This document shows, one piece after another, positions 3,565 to 14,360 of a stretch of 64,000 nt of DNA (position 1 is the first letter of the stretch; each line of letters starts with the position of its first letter). Both the position numbers and the translations under genes were made by a program. This stretch comes from Flavobacterium aquiphilum (GTDB taxonomy: Bacteria; Bacteroidota; Bacteroidia; Flavobacteriales; Flavobacteriaceae), in the NCBI RefSeq assembly GCF_027111335.1, contig NZ_CP114288.1, forward strand, positions 1,488,001 to 1,552,000, read 5' to 3'. The notes beneath the pieces were generated by a model that saw only the letters and a program-made list of their open reading frames with translations, searched no databases and was not told the origin of the DNA.

Positions 3565-4464
3565 TTATAAAATATGCTTTTGAGCTTTGTAAGAAGAACG
3601 AACTAATGCGCCACTTTCTACATGACGGAAACCTAATTCTAAACCGAATGTCTCATATTTCTTGAACTGATCCGGAGTTATGAATTCTTTTACAGGGAGG
3701 TGTTTTTTACTTGGTTGTAAATATTGACCAATGGTAACAATATCTACATTGGCAGCACGTAAATCACGCATGGTTTGAAAAACTTCTTCTTCTTGTTCAC
3801 CAAGCCCTAACATAATTCCCGATTTAGTTCGGTTGATGCCTTTCTCTTTCAAATATCTCAAAACTTCAAGGCTTCGGTCATATTTGGCTTGAATACGAAC
3901 TTCACGCGTCAATCTTCGAACAGTTTCCATATTATGCGAAACTACTTCTGGGTTTGCCTCTACAATACGATCGATATTTCTTTCGATTCCTTGAAAATCT
4001 GGAATAAGAGTTTCTAAGGTTGTGTTTGGGTTCATTCTGCGGATGGCTTTTACAGTTTCTCCCCAAATAATTGAACCGCCGTCTTTCAAGTCATCCCTGT
4101 CCACACTGGTGATTACAGCATGTTTGATGTTCATTATTTTTATTGAGCGAGCTACTTTTTCAGGTTCGTCCCAGTCTACCGTTTCTGGTCTTCCGGTTTT
4201 TACGCCACAAAAACCGCAGGAACGTGTACAAGTGTTTCCAAGAATCATGAATGTAGCTGTTCCTTCTCCCCAGCATTCACCCATGTTTGGGCAGCTTCCG
4301 GAAGTACAAATAGTATTGAGGCTGTATTTATCTACTAAACCACGAAGTTCAGTGTATTTTTGTCCAATTGGTAGTTTTACCTTTAGCCATTTTGGTTTAG
4401 CTATGCTCGATTCGGCGTTGCCTCGGGTTCCAACAGGTAATGTATTATCTAAAGCAGTTTCCAT
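3565..4464 (-). CDS. lipA: lipoyl synthase
   Basis: 299 residues, a normal length. Two cysteine sets define the enzyme: C53/C58/C64 (CTSGSCPNMGEC), which hold the auxiliary 4Fe-4S cluster, and C79/C83/C86 (CTRSCGFC), the radical-SAM cluster. RSSYK near the C-terminus supplies the Ser that ligates the auxiliary cluster in this family. The enzyme inserts two sulfur atoms into octanoyl groups on the E2 and H-protein lipoyl domains. The gene stands alone between gap and a divergent M48 gene; its usual partner lipB is not in the window. Its start lies 241 bases from the divergent start at 4706, so the gap holds both promoters. Confidence 0.97.
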   Translation of the reverse strand: METALDNTLPVGTRGNAESSIAKPKWLKVKLPIGQKYTELRGLVDKYSLNTICTSGSCPNMGECWGEGTATFMILGNTCTRSCGFCGVKTGRPETVDWDEPEKVARSIKIMNIKHAVITSVDRDDLKDGGSIIWGETVKAIRRMNPNTTLETLIPDFQGIERNIDRIVEANPEVVSHNMETVRRLTREVRIQAKYDRSLEVLRYLKEKGINRTKSGIMLGLGEQEEEVFQTMRDLRAANVDIVTIGQYLQPSKKHLPVKEFITPDQFKKYETFGLELGFRHVESGALVRSSYKAQKHIL

Positions 4465-4673
4465 ATTTCAATTTTCTGAGTACAAAGATAAGGAATGTAG
4501 TTTTAGAATTTGAACTCACTATTTATGAATTTTGATCAAAGCTGTTTGATTGTCAGTCAAATTTTTGATTTTCGTAGGATTAAAAGGGATTTTGTAAATG
4601 CCTAATTTATGGTTTTGTAGGTTTTGCTTTTAAAAGTTAAAACTAAAATGGATTAAGTTTTTTTAGATTGTTG

Positions 4674-4681
4674 TATATTTG
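4674..4681 (+). promoter_or_regulatory. Bacteroidota-type -7 element of the M48 peptidase gene
   Basis: TATATTTG matches the TAnnTTTG -7 consensus of Bacteroidota sigma-A promoters and lies 24 bases before the ATG at 4706. A clear -33 TTTG at the preferred spacing is not visible. Confidence 0.55.
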
Positions 4682-4705
4682 CCCTTCAAATAATTAAAAA
4701 TAGAG

Positions 4706-5581
4706 ATGAATACAAAATCATTATTATTAGGAATTTTTGTGACTTTTGCTGGGTTTTCAGCTGCTCAGGCACAAATTAATTTGGGAGAAAGAGCACTGGG
4801 AGCTGTTCAAAAAGGAATAACTGGGTTTACTTTTAGCGATGCTGATGCAGCGGCTTTGTCTAAAGCGGCAGTTGATAAAATGGATGCTGAAAATAAAGTT
4901 GCAGGACCAACAGATCCTTATGCAATTCGTTTAGCCAGAGTTTTTGGGAAATATACTAAGGGAGATAATTATACCTTAAATTATAAAGTATATTTGACTA
5001 AAGATGTTAATGCTTTTGCAACTGCGGATGGTAGTGTGCGTGTTTTTTCTGGTTTGATGGATATAATGGATGATAATGAATTAATTGCGGTGATTGGTCA
5101 CGAAATTGGTCACGTGAATAATCATGATTCAAGAGATGCGATGAAAGCTGCCTACCAAAAAGAAGCTTTAATCGATGCCGCAGCTTCACAATCTAATAAA
5201 GTAGCTGCTGTTACCGATAGTCAATTGGCTAAAATTGGAAGCGCCATGATTGACAGCAAATATAGCCGAAAACAAGAATCAGAAGCGGATTTGTTTGCTT
5301 ATGAATTCATGAAAAAAAATGGATACGATGTAAATGCAGAGGAATCTGCTTTTAGAACATTGGCTAAAATGAGTCAAAGTGAGGAAAGTTCATTTATTGA
5401 CAAAATGATGAGTTCTCACCCAGATTCTAATTTGAGAGCTGATACCGCTAAAGCAAGAGCTGAGAAAGATGGTGTCTATAAAACTTATACTAAAAAGCCG
5501 ATCGTGAATGGAGCTCTTCCTGTAAAGAAAACAACAACAAAGACCACTACGACTAAAAAGAAAACTACTACAAAGAAGTAA
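4706..5581 (+). CDS. M48 family zinc metallopeptidase, secreted/periplasmic
   Basis: 291 residues. A signal peptide covers about 1-22 (ends AQAQ). The zinc motif HEIGH is at 132-136, with the third ligand Glu193 in ESEAD, the standard M48 arrangement. It resembles the stand-alone BepA/LoiP group of M48 peptidases that work in envelope protein quality control; this role is inferred. The last 30 or so residues are a Lys/Thr-rich tail (TTTKTTTTKKKTT), low-complexity and probably disordered or wall-contacting. No TPR domain follows, unlike BepA. It is a single-gene unit: a -7 element lies 24 bases upstream and a bidirectional hairpin terminator directly after the stop. The Met at 4706 gives a clean signal peptide, so the start is well supported. 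Confidence 0.9.
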   Translation: MNTKSLLLGIFVTFAGFSAAQAQINLGERALGAVQKGITGFTFSDADAAALSKAAVDKMDAENKVAGPTDPYAIRLARVFGKYTKGDNYTLNYKVYLTKDVNAFATADGSVRVFSGLMDIMDDNELIAVIGHEIGHVNNHDSRDAMKAAYQKEALIDAAASQSNKVAAVTDSQLAKIGSAMIDSKYSRKQESEADLFAYEFMKKNGYDVNAEESAFRTLAKMSQSEESSFIDKMMSSHPDSNLRADTAKARAEKDGVYKTYTKKPIVNGALPVKKTTTKTTTTKKKTTTKK

Positions 5582-6844: not shown

Positions 6845-7858
6845 AACCTGAACTCGATTAATAATTTAGGCTGAAAATATTATAGAAAAAGGTAAAATTT
6901 AGTATATTTAAATCTCTGACAATTAAATATTTAACTAAACTCTACCTTGTGATTTGTTTCGATAAAATTACAGATATTTTTTCTATTGTTGATGAATTTT
7001 GTAAAGATTTTGAGAAAACCACACAGCCTTTTCTGCTAGGAAAACCTTCCAAACGTCCTTCGATTATGTCAAAATCAGAAGTAATTACAATTTATTTACT
7101 TTTTCATTTGAGTGGTTTTCGTTGTTTCAAGCATTATTACATTTTTTATGTCCAAAAGCATATGCAAAATGAATTTCCTAATACAGTTTCTTATAATCGC
7201 TTTTTAGAACTGATGCAAAGTGTTCTTTTGCCAATGACAATTTTTGCCAAAACCTGTTGTTTAGGCAATTGTACAGGTATTTCATTTGTAGACTCAACAC
7301 CAATAAGAGTTTGTAAAAACAAACGAATCAGTAGAAATAAAGTTTTTAAAGATATTGCCACTACAGGAAAATCTACAATGGGTTGGTTTCATGGGTTTAA
7401 GCTCCATATTATCATTAATGACAAAGGAGAATTGTTAAGCTTTGCTGTAACTCAAGCCAACGTAGATGATAGAGAGCCACTGAAAAATGAGGGCTTTTTG
7501 AATGCTATTTTCGGAAAACTATTTGGTGATAAAGGATATATAAGCGAAAAACTCTCCCAATTATTATTTGTTGATGGAGTTCAATTAATTACAAGCATTC
7601 GCAATAATATGAAAAATAGTTTGATGGAAATGAGTGATAAAATCTTACTCCGTAAACGCTCAATAATAGAAACGGTTAACGATGAACTTAAAAATATTTG
7701 CCAAGTTGAACACTCTAGGCATCGCTCATTTATCAACTTTTTGTCAAATCTTATCGCTGGAATAATTGCTTATAATTTTCTGCCTAAAAAACCTTCTTTG
7801 AAATACGAAACGGTTAAAACTAACCAATTAGCAGTATTTTATTAATCGAGTTTAGGTT
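6845..7858 (+). mobile_element. IS982-family insertion sequence, apparently complete
   Basis: About 1,014 bp bounded by imperfect terminal inverted repeats: 6845-6861 (left) and 7842-7858 (right) match at 16 of 17 positions when one is reverse-complemented. A single intact transposase gene fills it, and the right repeat contains the transposase stop codon. No clear target-site duplication is seen on comparing the flanks, so the exact ends could be off by a base or the copy may be old. It marks the left side of the accessory island. Confidence 0.88.
6949..7845 (+). CDS. IS982 family transposase
   Basis: 298 residues, starting at GTG (6949) with no better ATG upstream, which is common in IS elements. 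The DDE catalytic triad reads Asp115 (SFVDSTPI), Asp194 (FGDKGYIS) and Glu241 (IIETVND), with spacing typical for IS982. The HTH-like N-terminal part and the central GWFHGFKLH segment are also family-typical. No internal stop or frameshift is present, so the copy may still be able to move. It lies between the two element ends described separately. Confidence 0.93.
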   Translation: MICFDKITDIFSIVDEFCKDFEKTTQPFLLGKPSKRPSIMSKSEVITIYLLFHLSGFRCFKHYYIFYVQKHMQNEFPNTVSYNRFLELMQSVLLPMTIFAKTCCLGNCTGISFVDSTPIRVCKNKRISRNKVFKDIATTGKSTMGWFHGFKLHIIINDKGELLSFAVTQANVDDREPLKNEGFLNAIFGKLFGDKGYISEKLSQLLFVDGVQLITSIRNNMKNSLMEMSDKILLRKRSIIETVNDELKNICQVEHSRHRSFINFLSNLIAGIIAYNFLPKKPSLKYETVKTNQLAVFY

Positions 7859-7958: not shown

Positions 7959-7981
7959 TTTGAAATTTAAAAAAAAATCTT

Positions 7982-8401
7982 ATGAAAAAAAAATCTATTT
8001 TTTGTTAGTGCCACAATGTTTGTACTAGCTTCTTGTTCAAATAATGATGACAATAATCCGTCTAAAGAACCTTCAGTTTTGGTAAAAAAAAGTAACAACA
8101 CAGATTGAACTGTTTCTTATGATGAAGTTAGAGGAATTTTTTTGACTGGAGTTGAAGAAAATATGGTACTGCGGGAAAATTTACTTTTAAAGATGGCAAT
8201 CTAATAAAAGATGAAAGTACTGATAATGGCGGTTCTTCAAGAACAGTCGTTTATGAATATGATACTAAAAATAATCCTTATAAAAATGTTACAGGTATGA
8301 ATCTATTATTAGAAGAGGATGTATCATCTGTTAATAATTTGATTAAGTCAACAGATATATCAGGATCTGACTGTAATATATATAACTACTTATGTTTATA
8401 A
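7982..8401 (+). pseudogene. decayed small lipoprotein gene
   Basis: Joining frames recovers a convincing lipoprotein. With one A removed from the A-run after ATG the start reads MKKNLFFVSATMFVLASCSNN, with a lipobox VLASC. Later pieces read VSYDEV and, in another frame, GKFTFKDGNLIKD, then VVYEYDTKNNPYKNVTGMN. This pattern (polar turn-rich repeats ending in YDxKNNPxKNVTG) recurs in flavobacterial lipoproteins of unknown function. At least three small insertions/deletions, mostly at homopolymers, plus stops break it, and the 3' end appears truncated near 8401. It sits between the IS982 copy and the peptide locus. Sequencing error is a possible alternative but would have to hit several places in 400 bp. 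Confidence 0.75.
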
Positions 8402-8494: not shown

Positions 8495-8650
8495 ATGAAA
8501 AATGAAGAAGTAATGAACAATTTTTCAAAAGAGGAAATGTTAAAAGGACTTTCTATTGAAGAACTTCAAGAAAGAAAAGAATTCTCTGCACCACCAGACA
8601 CTTGTTGGTGTGACCCAACTCCTCCTTGTTGTTTTGGTTATCCTATGTAA
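8495..8650 (+). CDS. small Cys/Pro-rich peptide, candidate RiPP precursor
   Basis: 51 residues from the ATG at 8495; a second in-frame ATG at 8513 would give 45. Upstream GTG (8468) is less likely. The first half is a charged amphipathic leader (NFSKEEMLKGLSIEELQERK), recalling Bacteroidota RiPP leaders of the L-x-L-S-x-E-E-L type. The second half is a compact core with four Cys, five Pro and one each of Trp and Tyr (CWC, then PPCCFGYP), ending at Met. There is no signal peptide, no GG cleavage motif and no metal-site spacing I recognise. It lies 28 bases before a membrane metallopeptidase with a recognition-domain-like N-terminus, which is what a precursor peptide should adjoin. The product and activity are unknown. 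Alternatives are a small metal-binding or regulatory protein. Confidence 0.6.
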   Translation: MKNEEVMNNFSKEEMLKGLSIEELQERKEFSAPPDTCWCDPTPPCCFGYPM

Positions 8651-8678
8651 TCAATGGTCTTAATTTAAAGAGGCAGAA

Positions 8679-9650
8679 ATGCCTCTTTATAATACTGAAA
8701 TATTAGATATGTATTCTGAAATTCAAATTATCCCGACAGACGAAGAAAATAAATATTTATTTATCAAAGATAACAACCTAATTTATGGGGGATTTATTGT
8801 AAAAGATATTGTTGAATTATTAAAAGACCATATTTCAAATAAAAACATATCTATAATACTTTCGGAAAAATATAATACGACTATCGAAATTGAAACTATT
8901 AATAATCTAATTGATTTACAGCTAAATAAGTTGTTAATAAATCCAAAGAAAAAAAGAAGTTTAAGAAAGATATTAAAAGTAAAATTAAGTTCAGAAATTT
9001 ATTATCCAAATTTCATATTTGAGCTTTTTAAAATTGACTTTTTTTACATTTTATTATGCTTAACATTTGTTGCTAATGTAATATTTTACTTTACCATTTC
9101 TAAAAAGTGCGACCTTACGCTGAAACAACAAATGTTAGCATACATACTACTGTTTGTCATATTAATTTTTCACGAATTTGGACATATTATTAGTGCTAAA
9201 TATCATAACACAAAGGTAAAAGAAATTGGCATCGGAATATACAGAATAGTACCTGTTTTGTACGTAAATTTAGATGAAATTTGGAAATTGGACAAAACCA
9301 AAAGAATTTTAATTAATCTTTCAGGGATATATTTTCAATCGATAATAGGTTTCATTTTATTAATTATATTTTCAGTTTCTGATTTGAAGATTTTTGGTTA
9401 TTTATTTAATATTAATTTTGCAGTTTTAATCTTAAACTTAAATCCTTTTTTTCAATTTGATGGGTATTGGGTATTAACTGATTTAATAAAAGCAAAGAAT
9501 TTAAACCAAGTATCAAATACTTTTCTTAAAAATATTTTTAAAAAAAATAACACTCCAACATTTATAAAAATATATAGTATTTTAAAAGTCATTTTAATTA
9601 TTTATATAGCGTATCATTTGTTTAAACAAATTCTAACGTATGTCTCTTAA
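8679..9650 (+). CDS. M50-type membrane zinc metallopeptidase with PqqD/RRE-like N-terminus
   Basis: 323 residues. About 14-90 looks like a PqqD/RiPP recognition element: beta-rich start, KDIVELLKD helix, then a helix ending LNKLLI. Membrane helices follow at about 120-140, 150-170, 210-232, 240-256 and 300-316. The zinc site HEFGH is at 165-169 within a helix, and the third ligand Asp261 lies in NPFFQFDGYW, the variant seen in 'peptide zinc metalloprotease' proteins such as YydH-type enzymes of peptide clusters. I infer it binds the adjacent small peptide by its leader and cleaves it at or in the membrane. The start ATG at 8679 may be replaced by the ATG at 8709. The gene overlaps the next gene's ATG (9640). 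Base composition is strikingly AT-rich compared with nearby housekeeping genes. Confidence 0.8.
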   Translation: MPLYNTEILDMYSEIQIIPTDEENKYLFIKDNNLIYGGFIVKDIVELLKDHISNKNISIILSEKYNTTIEIETINNLIDLQLNKLLINPKKKRSLRKILKVKLSSEIYYPNFIFELFKIDFFYILLCLTFVANVIFYFTISKKCDLTLKQQMLAYILLFVILIFHEFGHIISAKYHNTKVKEIGIGIYRIVPVLYVNLDEIWKLDKTKRILINLSGIYFQSIIGFILLIIFSVSDLKIFGYLFNINFAVLILNLNPFFQFDGYWVLTDLIKAKNLNQVSNTFLKNIFKKNNTPTFIKIYSILKVILIIYIAYHLFKQILTYVS

Positions 9651-10739
9651 AAACAAAAAAAAAATAAACGTAAAGAAGTATTTAATCTCAAAAAAAAAGA
9701 TTTTAATCTACAAAGTTATTATTTTGCGTTATTTAGTGCTAATATCAATAAATTTCTGTCTCATATAAAAAAAAGTAACTATAAAGAATTGTTTTTTGAA
9801 ACAATTTATTGTCAACATTGCTCTGCTTTGGAGCAAAATAGTAAAGAATATCTTAAAAATTCTAAAATCATAAACAATACAAAATTTAAAATTATAAATG
9901 GAGAAATATCCGAAAATATCATATTTGCTACTTTTCATTTAGGATCATATAGGACAATAATTTCATACCTTTATGAGTGTGGATTCAAAGTCGCATTAAT
10001 AATTGATGATAGTGTATTTACCAGCCAATTAGATGCTTTTAAAGAGACAGTAACAAATATTTTAAAAGGTAAAATTAATTCCGACTTAATAATATTAAAT
10101 GTAAAAGAAAGGACATCTATAATTAAATTAAAACAATTAGTTGAAAACGGATATGTAATGGCTGTTTATTTAGATGGAAATTCAGGAATTAATGTTGAAG
10201 CTCAAAATTTTTCAAAAAATTTTATTCCAATTAATTTTTTAAATCAGCAGATTAATGTAAAATATGGAGTTGGTAAATTAGCATCAATCTTAAATGCAAA
10301 GATTATTCCAATATTATCTTATCGGGTAAACGAGAATGAAGAATATAACAATACAATTGAAATTTTTAAAGAAATTTCAATTTCTGACTTTGAAAATAAA
10401 GAAGATTTTGAAAAAAAATCAATAGAATATTGTTACTCACTATTGGAAGAAAAATTATTAAAATACCCTACCCAATGGGAATGTTGGGGTTATATCCATA
10501 AATGGTTTAACCGTGATATTGAAATTTCATTTAGCGAGCCATCAAAAAATATTACAAAATTTAACTCCGATCGATATAATTTATTTGAAGTGAATGATTC
10601 TAACTTCTTATTTGATTTATTTTCGTATAAATCTTATCCAATCTCAAATGAGCTATTTAAATTAATAGAAAAACAAAATTTTGATAAAATTGAGAATAAT
10701 TTATTATTAGAATTAAATCAGAAAAACATTCTTATATAA
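9640..10739 (+). CDS. LpxL/HtrB-like (lipid A acyltransferase fold) protein, frame broken at a 10-A tract
   Basis: The long frame runs to TAA at 10739 and reads as an LPLAT-family protein: IFATFHLGSYRT (the family HxGNWE region), AVYLDGNSG, then KYGVGKLASILNAKIIPI and PTQWECWGYIHKWF (family PxQYxWxHxRFK). The same frame is coding-like back to about 9663 but has no ATG; the next ATG (9640, overlapping the M50 stop) is in another frame. Joining the two needs one extra A or a -1 slip in the A-run 9655-9664. The annotated fallback start is TTG at 9789. The acid of the HX4D/E motif is replaced by Arg, so activity is doubtful or unusual. In this position it may acylate the small peptide (inference) or a surface lipid. 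Confidence 0.68.
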
Positions 10740-10761
10740 TCATATCAATAATTTATACTTT

Positions 10762-11610
10762 ATGAAAAATTCAATTCGATTATTTTTAATATTACTTTTT
10801 CCAATAATCACTTTTTCGCAAGAAAAAATATTTAGCGGAATAATAATTGATAGCTTGAAAAATCCTATTAAATATGTAAACATTGGAATACTAAATAAGC
10901 CAGTCGGAACAGTTACAAACGATAAAGGAGAATTTACTTTTTCATCAAAAAATGTAATAGAGTTAGATACACTGAAAATTTCTTGTATGGGATTTAAGTC
11001 TAAAGAAATTATTGTTAAAGACTTATCTAATATCACAGAAAAAATTAAAATTTCACTTGATAATTATATCGAAAATCTTGATGAAGTGGTTGTGAATAAA
11101 ACTAATTTAAGAACATATAGTGATGGAAAACAAAGAACAGAAACAAAACATGAGGTAATCTTTGCAAATCCAAATTACGAAAACATAAATTTAGGGACAG
11201 AAATAGGAAGAAAATTTTCACTAGGCACAAAAAAGCCAAGCTTTTTAACAGAATTTAAGTTTTTCATAAAAGACAATAATTTTGAAATGGTTAAATTTAG
11301 AATTAATTGCTATACTATAAAAAATAATAGACCTGATAAAAAAATTAATAAATCAAATATTATACTTCAAGTCAATAAAAAATTAACTGACTGGGTTAAT
11401 GTAGATTTATCAGCATTTAATATTTTAGTTCAAGATGATATTGTTATAACTGTTGAATGGATTGAACATTCAAATGATGGAAACAAATTAAATCTTCCAA
11501 TAATAATTCCTTCATTCGGTTCAACCCATTATTATAAATTTGGAAGTCAAGCAAATTGGCAAAAATATGGGAATATTTCTTCCTCAATGGTTTTAACTTA
11601 CAAACAGTAA
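10762..11610 (+). CDS. secreted carboxypeptidase-regulatory-like domain protein
   Basis: 282 residues. A signal peptide covers about 1-19 (ends ITFSQ). Residues 21-100 form a CarboxypepD_reg-like beta-sandwich (GIIIDSLKNPIKYVNIGI, GTVTNDKGEFTF, CMGFKSKE), followed by a short LDEVVV segment that in SusC-like proteins leads into a plug. No plug or barrel follows here. The remaining 170 residues are beta-rich (EFKFFIKDN, WVNVDLSAF, ITVEWIEH) and of unknown family; a jelly-roll-like fold is a guess. It follows the acyltransferase-like gene by 22 bases on the same strand and shares its AT-rich composition, so it probably belongs to the same locus, perhaps as a surface receptor or immunity factor. 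That role is inference only. Confidence 0.7.
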   Translation: MKNSIRLFLILLFPIITFSQEKIFSGIIIDSLKNPIKYVNIGILNKPVGTVTNDKGEFTFSSKNVIELDTLKISCMGFKSKEIIVKDLSNITEKIKISLDNYIENLDEVVVNKTNLRTYSDGKQRTETKHEVIFANPNYENINLGTEIGRKFSLGTKKPSFLTEFKFFIKDNNFEMVKFRINCYTIKNNRPDKKINKSNIILQVNKKLTDWVNVDLSAFNILVQDDIVITVEWIEHSNDGNKLNLPIIIPSFGSTHYYKFGSQANWQKYGNISSSMVLTYKQ

Positions 11611-13913: not shown

Positions 13914-14360
13914 TTAGAGTGTCTTTTGAAAACAAATGGCGTCTAGTCGGTTTACGTATTTACCATAGTTTGGTATTTTTGTATAGTTTGCTTTCAGGTA
14001 AAAGGAACAGGCTTCTTTGTTTTTTACTCTTGTTTCCAAAACCAGTTTTTCATAATTCAACTCTCTTGCTTTTGTTTCCAAAAAGGATAAAATGGATTGT
14101 CCAATATTTTTCCCCGGATATTTGGTAAACATTCGTTTTACTTCTCCTGTTTTTGGTGAGAGTGGTCTTATTGCCCCGCATCCCACAATTTCAGTGTTTA
14201 ATTCTGCTATAATAAATACATATCTGGGATTGTCGTATTCCCAATCTGTAAATGAGTTTTTACCGTCGCTTCCAAATCGTTCATAAAGATTTTGCGATAG
14301 CTCTTCTGTTATTGCGTAAGCTTCTGGAGCGTTTGGATCTGAAATTTTTATAGTGAGCAT
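13914..14360 (-). CDS. GNAT family N-acetyltransferase
   Basis: 148 residues. The acetyl-CoA region reads GEVKRMFTKYPGKNIGQSILSFLE (motif A, with R/Q-x-x-G-x-G/A-like loop as KNIGQS), followed by KLVLETRVKNKEACSFYLKANY (motif B with the usual FY). A central IVGCGAI beta strand fits the fold. The substrate is unknown; relatives act on small amines or protein N-termini. It lies 10 bases downstream of murB on the same strand and is probably co-transcribed with it. Confidence 0.87.
   Translation of the reverse strand: MLTIKISDPNAPEAYAITEELSQNLYERFGSDGKNSFTDWEYDNPRYVFIIAELNTEIVGCGAIRPLSPKTGEVKRMFTKYPGKNIGQSILSFLETKARELNYEKLVLETRVKNKEACSFYLKANYTKIPNYGKYVNRLDAICFQKTL

Follow-up and report, generated by a model that had tools for sequence, protein, structure and literature searches.

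The 64,000-nucleotide stretch of Flavobacterium aquiphilum DNA analysed here (contig NZ_CP114288.1, positions 1,488,001 to 1,552,000; hereafter the window) carries four plus-strand genes in a row, recognized from the list of open reading frames (ORFs) and their translations, which encode a small peptide, an M50 metalloprotease, a protein with the lysophospholipid acyltransferase (LPLAT) fold and a CarboxypepD_reg protein. This locus probably makes a lipid-modified ribosomally synthesized and post-translationally modified peptide (RiPP), which would be acylated by the LPLAT protein and released by the M50 protease, each of them fused to a predicted RiPP recognition element (RRE). The proposal is supported by a conserved peptide family, by co-occurrence of the genes, by the folds of both enzymes, by RRE-like domains in their structure models and by retained catalytic residues. 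A first-pass annotation had already read the locus as being of RiPP type, which peptide conservation, co-occurrence and the RRE-like fold bear out, but it overlooked the RRE-like domain at the C terminus of the LPLAT protein as well as the arginase-family, radical SAM, acyl-synthesis and two-component genes found in related loci.

A profile seeded with 11 leader-bearing peptides retrieved 138 peptide relatives at E <= 0.001, and precursor statistics refer to the 120 matches listed among them. Because the seeds carry the leader and the scoring pattern itself demands parts of it, the uniformity of the leader is partly a selection effect: within the motif I..L..R.EF, the Glu at motif position 2 and the Leu, Arg, Glu and Phe are identical in all 120 listed relatives, Leu being obligatory and the others restricted by the pattern. 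A Cys follows the leader motif in 118 of these relatives (at least three Cys in 89), and only two have a Cys within the leader part. The core string CWCDPTPPCCF was found in six of the 120: the window core, CWCDPTPPCCFGYPM, is nearly identical in P0127 and P0156, and P0147, P0152, P0217 and P0229 bear the string with other leaders and tails. Since there are 138 relatives and the core string recurs in six of 120 with differing leaders, the peptide gene is, judged from sequence, real and beyond chance, and the 51-residue Cys peptide proposed earlier is conserved as a protein. No NCBIfam model was found for the 11 precursors scanned. The locus thus shows a general hallmark of RiPP systems, namely a small precursor with a conserved leader and a variable core beside its enzymes; another, an RRE carried by one of these enzymes, is provided by the N-terminal domain of the M50 protein in its predicted model.

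This RRE, suggested in the first-pass annotation, was detected as a fold match in the model and is weak by sequence, and profile-profile comparison for an RRE shared among the M50, LPLAT and arginase proteins likewise gave weak matches. In the protease domain, H165, E166, G168 and H169 are invariant in 24 of 24 aligned sequences, and the alignment places the start of most close M50 relatives at the Met encoded at 8709.

Related loci were gathered with the LPLAT alignment alone (69 in a first search, more in a second), which did find loci where a scan of genome contigs with a single M50 sequence gave no match. The compared set comprises 80 loci including the window, 52 of the 131 others gathered having been dropped (45 because their flanks were short, 7 as duplicates); L126 and L013 appear to be the same record, so that 79 loci are distinct and counts for loci without M50 drop by one. 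Neighbour families are BLAST clusters, and hidden Markov model (HMM) checks apply to named proteins only. Across the 80 loci, 53 short ORFs bear the leader motif, every one on the LPLAT strand, and the motif is present in 26 of the 27 loci with an M50 gene (the exception being L035) versus one of the 53 without it (L019, whose sequence ends just past its peptides). Fisher tests of M50 against the leader peptide (9e-19) and for the small Cys ORF described below (3e-20) are both inflated by kinship and overstate the evidence, because the loci, many of them from Spirosoma, Larkinella and Runella, are not independent. Peptide, M50 and LPLAT genes do occur together elsewhere, as the earlier proposal had asked to be checked. 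Among the remaining loci (52 in total), a small late-Cys ORF ends beside the LPLAT start in 44 of 51 that could be scored, versus 60 of 305 control genes from the same loci. Loci L010-L015, L018, L020-L024 and others from Runella, Larkinella and Spirosoma lack M50 and have a different type of leader, with a small late-Cys peptide (often CC) ending right before the LPLAT gene and a LytTR protein encoded divergently upstream.

The structure model of the window LPLAT protein confirmed the LpxL-like fold that had been proposed for it. His96 and Asp175 are almost invariant among its relatives and form a pair of the PatA type, with an acidic residue about 75 positions after the His; their spacing is 79, versus 74 for H126/E200 of PatA, the match being one of sequence position and fold and not of superposed coordinates. 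PF03279 was not reported for the window protein in the Pfam scan and was matched at E <= 1 by 17 of 29 relatives (best 3.6e-6); TIGR02207 reached 15.9 bits, far below its cut-off of 297.8, and no sequence relative was found in the Protein Data Bank. A role as a plain lipid A enzyme is unsupported, given that the family models are not passed, that three PF03279 matches, none of them the locus LPLAT, lie elsewhere in this genome and that the modelled protein ends in an RRE-like domain; this domain and the small-peptide partner set it apart from LpxL/LpxM and PatA. The acid of the HX4D motif is replaced by Arg or Lys, which would suit a protein that no longer transfers acyl groups and acts as a partner carrying an RRE, the peptide being only cut and perhaps forming disulfides or binding metal through Cys pairs. 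The many multi-Cys cores and the 53 of 80 LPLAT loci without M50 agree with that, but the persistence of His96 and Asp175 in the pattern of PatA, the acyl-synthesis genes of some loci and several peptide relatives entirely devoid of Cys speak against it, and we consider it quite unlikely.

In the lipidated-RiPP pathway that we favour, the 51-residue precursor would be bound through its leader (GLSIEELQERxEF) by the RREs fused to both enzymes. The LPLAT protein would then transfer an acyl group from a presumed acyl-ACP or acyl-CoA donor to the core; as in PatA, His96 would act as the base and be paired with Asp175. We infer this acylation from the LPLAT fold, from the preserved His/Asp pair and from acyl-synthesis genes in some of the loci: a ketosynthase cluster occurs in six of the 80 loci, ketosynthases were confirmed in L051, L059 and L121, and L051 also has an acyl carrier protein (ACP) and FabZ. 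As a putative third step, the membrane-embedded M50 protease would cleave near the leader/core border and release the product for presumed export, and the secreted CarboxypepD_reg protein may handle, anchor or receive it outside the cell.

The likeliest acceptor would be a Cys thiol or the N terminus that cleavage exposes. No core residue is shared more often than Cys, yet in M50-type loci 11 of the 53 cores are without it, mostly having Ser, and our best guess from core composition is an S- or O-linked acyl group or one on the newly formed N terminus. The window core contains neither Lys nor Arg, and neither do 53 of the 120 listed relatives after the leader motif; Lys or ornithine (Orn) is therefore not a general acceptor. 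The arginases of related loci give some weight to acylation on a Lys or ornithine side chain beside Cys, that is, selidamide-like chemistry carried out by a different fold. PF00491 arginase-family proteins were found in L016, L038, L045, L051 and L064, and a custom profile added L025, L031 and L121 and a fragment in L065, a locus without M50; the five PF00491 proteins have about 100 extra N-terminal residues, possibly an RRE. Arg is present in cores of all eight arginase loci versus three of 19 others. Of the 17 peptides from arginase loci, 12 contain Arg-Cys, versus three of 36 others (all three from L019, cut off at its sequence end); Lys-Cys is present in 14 of the full set of 53 peptides. 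According to the available portions of PMC9505594 and PMC13060382, known selidamides are acylated on ornithine formed by a peptide arginase, and the phaeornamide pathway also employs one. However, the published peptide arginases belong to pfam12640, as far as the accessible text of PMC12703449 goes, so that PF00491 would add a further arginase family that acts on peptides. With the Lys- and Arg-free cores also set against it, such side-chain acylation appears unlikely.

The coordinates of all features are given in Table 1.

Table 1. Features of the peptide locus and its upstream flank (window coordinates)
Feature	Position	Strand	Basis
Precursor peptide gene, 51 aa	8495..8650	+	ORF; 138 relatives; leader/core statistics
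Leader with LSIEELQERKEF, then probable core SAPPDTCWCDPTPPCCFGYPM	core 8585-8647	+	Putative leader/core boundary
RRE-fused M50 intramembrane metalloprotease	8679..9650, likely true start 8709	+	PF02163, 48.8 bits (cut-off 27.2); alignment of relatives; model pLDDT 89.9
N-terminal RRE/PqqD-like domain of M50	8688..8939	+	Structure model, residues 4-87
HEFGH zinc motif of M50	9171..9185	+	Translation and alignment of relatives
ATG (9640-9642) matching the LPLAT N terminus of relatives and overlapping the M50 stop; A10 tract (9655-9664), beyond which the LPLAT body continues in a different frame	9640..9664	+	
LPLAT-fold (LpxM/PatA-like) acyltransferase, open frame without ATG	9651..10739	+	His96 at 9936-9938, Asp175 at 10173-10175
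C-terminal RRE-like domain of LPLAT protein	10548..10736	+	Structure model, residues 300-362
Secreted CarboxypepD_reg-like beta-sandwich protein	10762..11610	+	PF13715, 56.9 bits (cut-off 32.2); recurs in 7/80 loci
IS982 element, directly upstream of the AT-rich islet	6845-7858; transposase 6949-7845		20-bp terminal inverted repeats, 95% complementary

A point weighing against activity in this genome is the LPLAT gene itself. All four ORFs described earlier stand, but the LPLAT gene had to be corrected, its start ATG and its body lying in separate frames that meet at the A10 tract. Because no ATG lies in frame with the body, the ORF list begins it at TTG 9789, and the database entry (P0052, 303 aa) begins even further downstream. 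An LPLAT ATG overlapping the M50 stop is found in L002, L003, L004 and others as well, and P0051, 87% identical to the window protein, has an unbroken N terminus, MSLKKKKK. On the sequence alone, the gene may here be inactive, dependent on slippage or mis-assembled; with start and body in different frames, the pathway may be off in this genome or rely on slippage.

The frame change could also belong to a decayed or chance grouping, in which an AT-rich islet beside an insertion sequence holds a disrupted LPLAT gene and yields nothing functional. The IS982 element lies immediately upstream, and between it and the peptide gene (about 7980-8400) are short frames in several phases, one resembling a lipoprotein signal (LASCSNNDD), which look like the remnant of a degraded small lipoprotein gene. 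The G+C content is very low, at 22-29% in each kilobase between 8 and 12 kb of the window and 22.4% across the span from M50 to LPLAT, versus 34.9% for the remainder, in line with the earlier description of four AT-rich same-strand genes. Nevertheless, neither the peptide frame nor the M50 frame is broken, both are conserved, unbroken sets of homologous genes occur elsewhere, and the signs of decay concern this genome alone and not the family, which makes this explanation improbable. The same span is richer in AT than its flanks in 20 of 22 measurable M50-type loci, five others having too little flank.

The locus may represent an undescribed kind of lipid-tagged peptide. Like YydF/YydH (EpeX/EpeP), it combines a small peptide with a membrane M50 protease, and the likeness to YydH claimed for the protease was upheld by NCBIfam and structure comparison; however, the YydH/LiaK model scores 50.2 bits, below its cut-off of 225, and the locus has no radical SAM epimerase, contains an LPLAT gene and has a different leader. 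EpeP is thought to cleave and export, according to the available text of PMC10885120. The best NCBIfam model for the M50 protein is that of daptides (NF041824, daptide_HExxH; 63.1 bits), but its cut-off of 300 is missed and no daptide-type partner genes occur among the flanking genes scanned. Selidamides, lipolanthines, goadvionins and nostolysamides are ribosomal peptides bearing a fatty acyl group, as proposed here; in the accessible descriptions their acyltransferases are GNATs acting on amines, whereas the enzyme here has the LPLAT fold and, in its model, an RRE-like domain of its own, and the selidamide acceptor is Lys/Orn, both Lys and Arg being missing from the window core. No GNAT acyltransferase is present in the locus, the only GNAT-like gene noted (13914-14360) lying on the opposite strand amid unrelated genes. 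The DAG-RiPPs are lipidated RiPPs that also occur in Bacteroidota and involve Cys but, in the available portions of PMC12636315, depend on an N-terminal lipoprotein signal, the general lipoprotein pathway and an MNIO, whereas the window precursor has a charged leader; reading its sequence, with no signal-peptide program applied, revealed no signal peptide or lipobox. In the open subset of PubMed Central, we found no LPLAT-fold enzyme acting on a RiPP and, in the accessible text, no description of Cys acylation of RiPPs, lipidated RiPPs being attributed there to GNATs on amines, prenyltransferases or the lipoprotein pathway. If the proposal holds, an LPLAT with its own leader-recognition domain would constitute a separate enzymatic route to ribosomal lipopeptides, encoded by a small, portable set of two or three genes spread across Bacteroidota.

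In 15 of the 80 loci the LPLAT strand also carries a member of a histidine kinase cluster, within 220 bp of the LPLAT end in 13 and with a same-strand LytTR regulator in 14. Peptide and LPLAT genes are followed at once by LytS-type kinase and LytTR genes in L041, L044, L050, L052, L055, L056, L058 and others, and the HMM check confirmed PF06580 and LytTR in L055 and PF06580 in L044. In 31 further loci, mostly of Runella, Larkinella and Spirosoma, a divergent LytTR protein lies just upstream, often with a LuxR-type regulator slightly further away (checked in L010). ComQXPA is a pheromone system with a prenyl transferase, and some relatives resemble it in having peptide, lipid-transfer enzyme, histidine kinase and response regulator in one row, with an acyl rather than a prenyl transferase. 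It is tempting, though at present speculative, to view the RRE-fused LPLAT and its peptide as the minimal unit of a Bacteroidota-wide family of acylated signal peptides, comparable to ComQXPA but built on acyl groups, in which Cys (in some cases Ser) would be acylated, the dedicated kinase and LytTR regulator would be the readers, and M50, arginase, radical SAM and acyl-synthesis genes would be add-ons. Only two of the 15 kinase loci (L044 and L050) are M50-type and no kinase/regulator pair is present among the window flanking genes scanned; signalling is therefore a lead for the family and not for the window locus. The kinase in these 15 loci would make peptide signalling in Bacteroidota directly testable.

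No radical SAM gene was detected among the four locus genes in the Pfam and NCBIfam scans, as stated in the first-pass annotation, and the nearest one identified in the window (3565-4464) encodes lipoyl synthase. Related loci differ in this respect: L124 encodes a radical SAM/SPASM protein (nearest model TIGR04463, below cut-off; SPASM domain above cut-off), and in L124 and L125 such a protein, a leader-motif peptide, LPLAT and M50 share a single stretch; L124 also encodes a thiopep_ocin protein close by. The CarboxypepD_reg cluster comprises the window, L004, L005, L009, L016, L045 and L064, all M50-type; in its stead, other loci encode either an outer-membrane protein of the TonB type, as checked in L002, or a peptidase of family S41, as checked in L007 and L061. 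The LPLAT gene is rare, occurring in 8 of 299 genomes of the genus and matching at E <= 0.001 in 26 of 395 of a phylum sample (only six with E below 1e-15), and no relative was found in viral contigs. One locus, L038, belongs to the gut bacterium Segatella copri. In L050, a TraB/PrgY/GumN-family protein (4017-4889), of a family known from enterococcal pheromone systems, is encoded upstream of the M50 and LPLAT genes and of four peptides of the leader type. Two loci, L008 and L070, are titled Mycoplasmataceae and Gammaproteobacteria; the L008 label is probably a binning error, since its peptide nearly equals that of the Bacteroidia locus L017.
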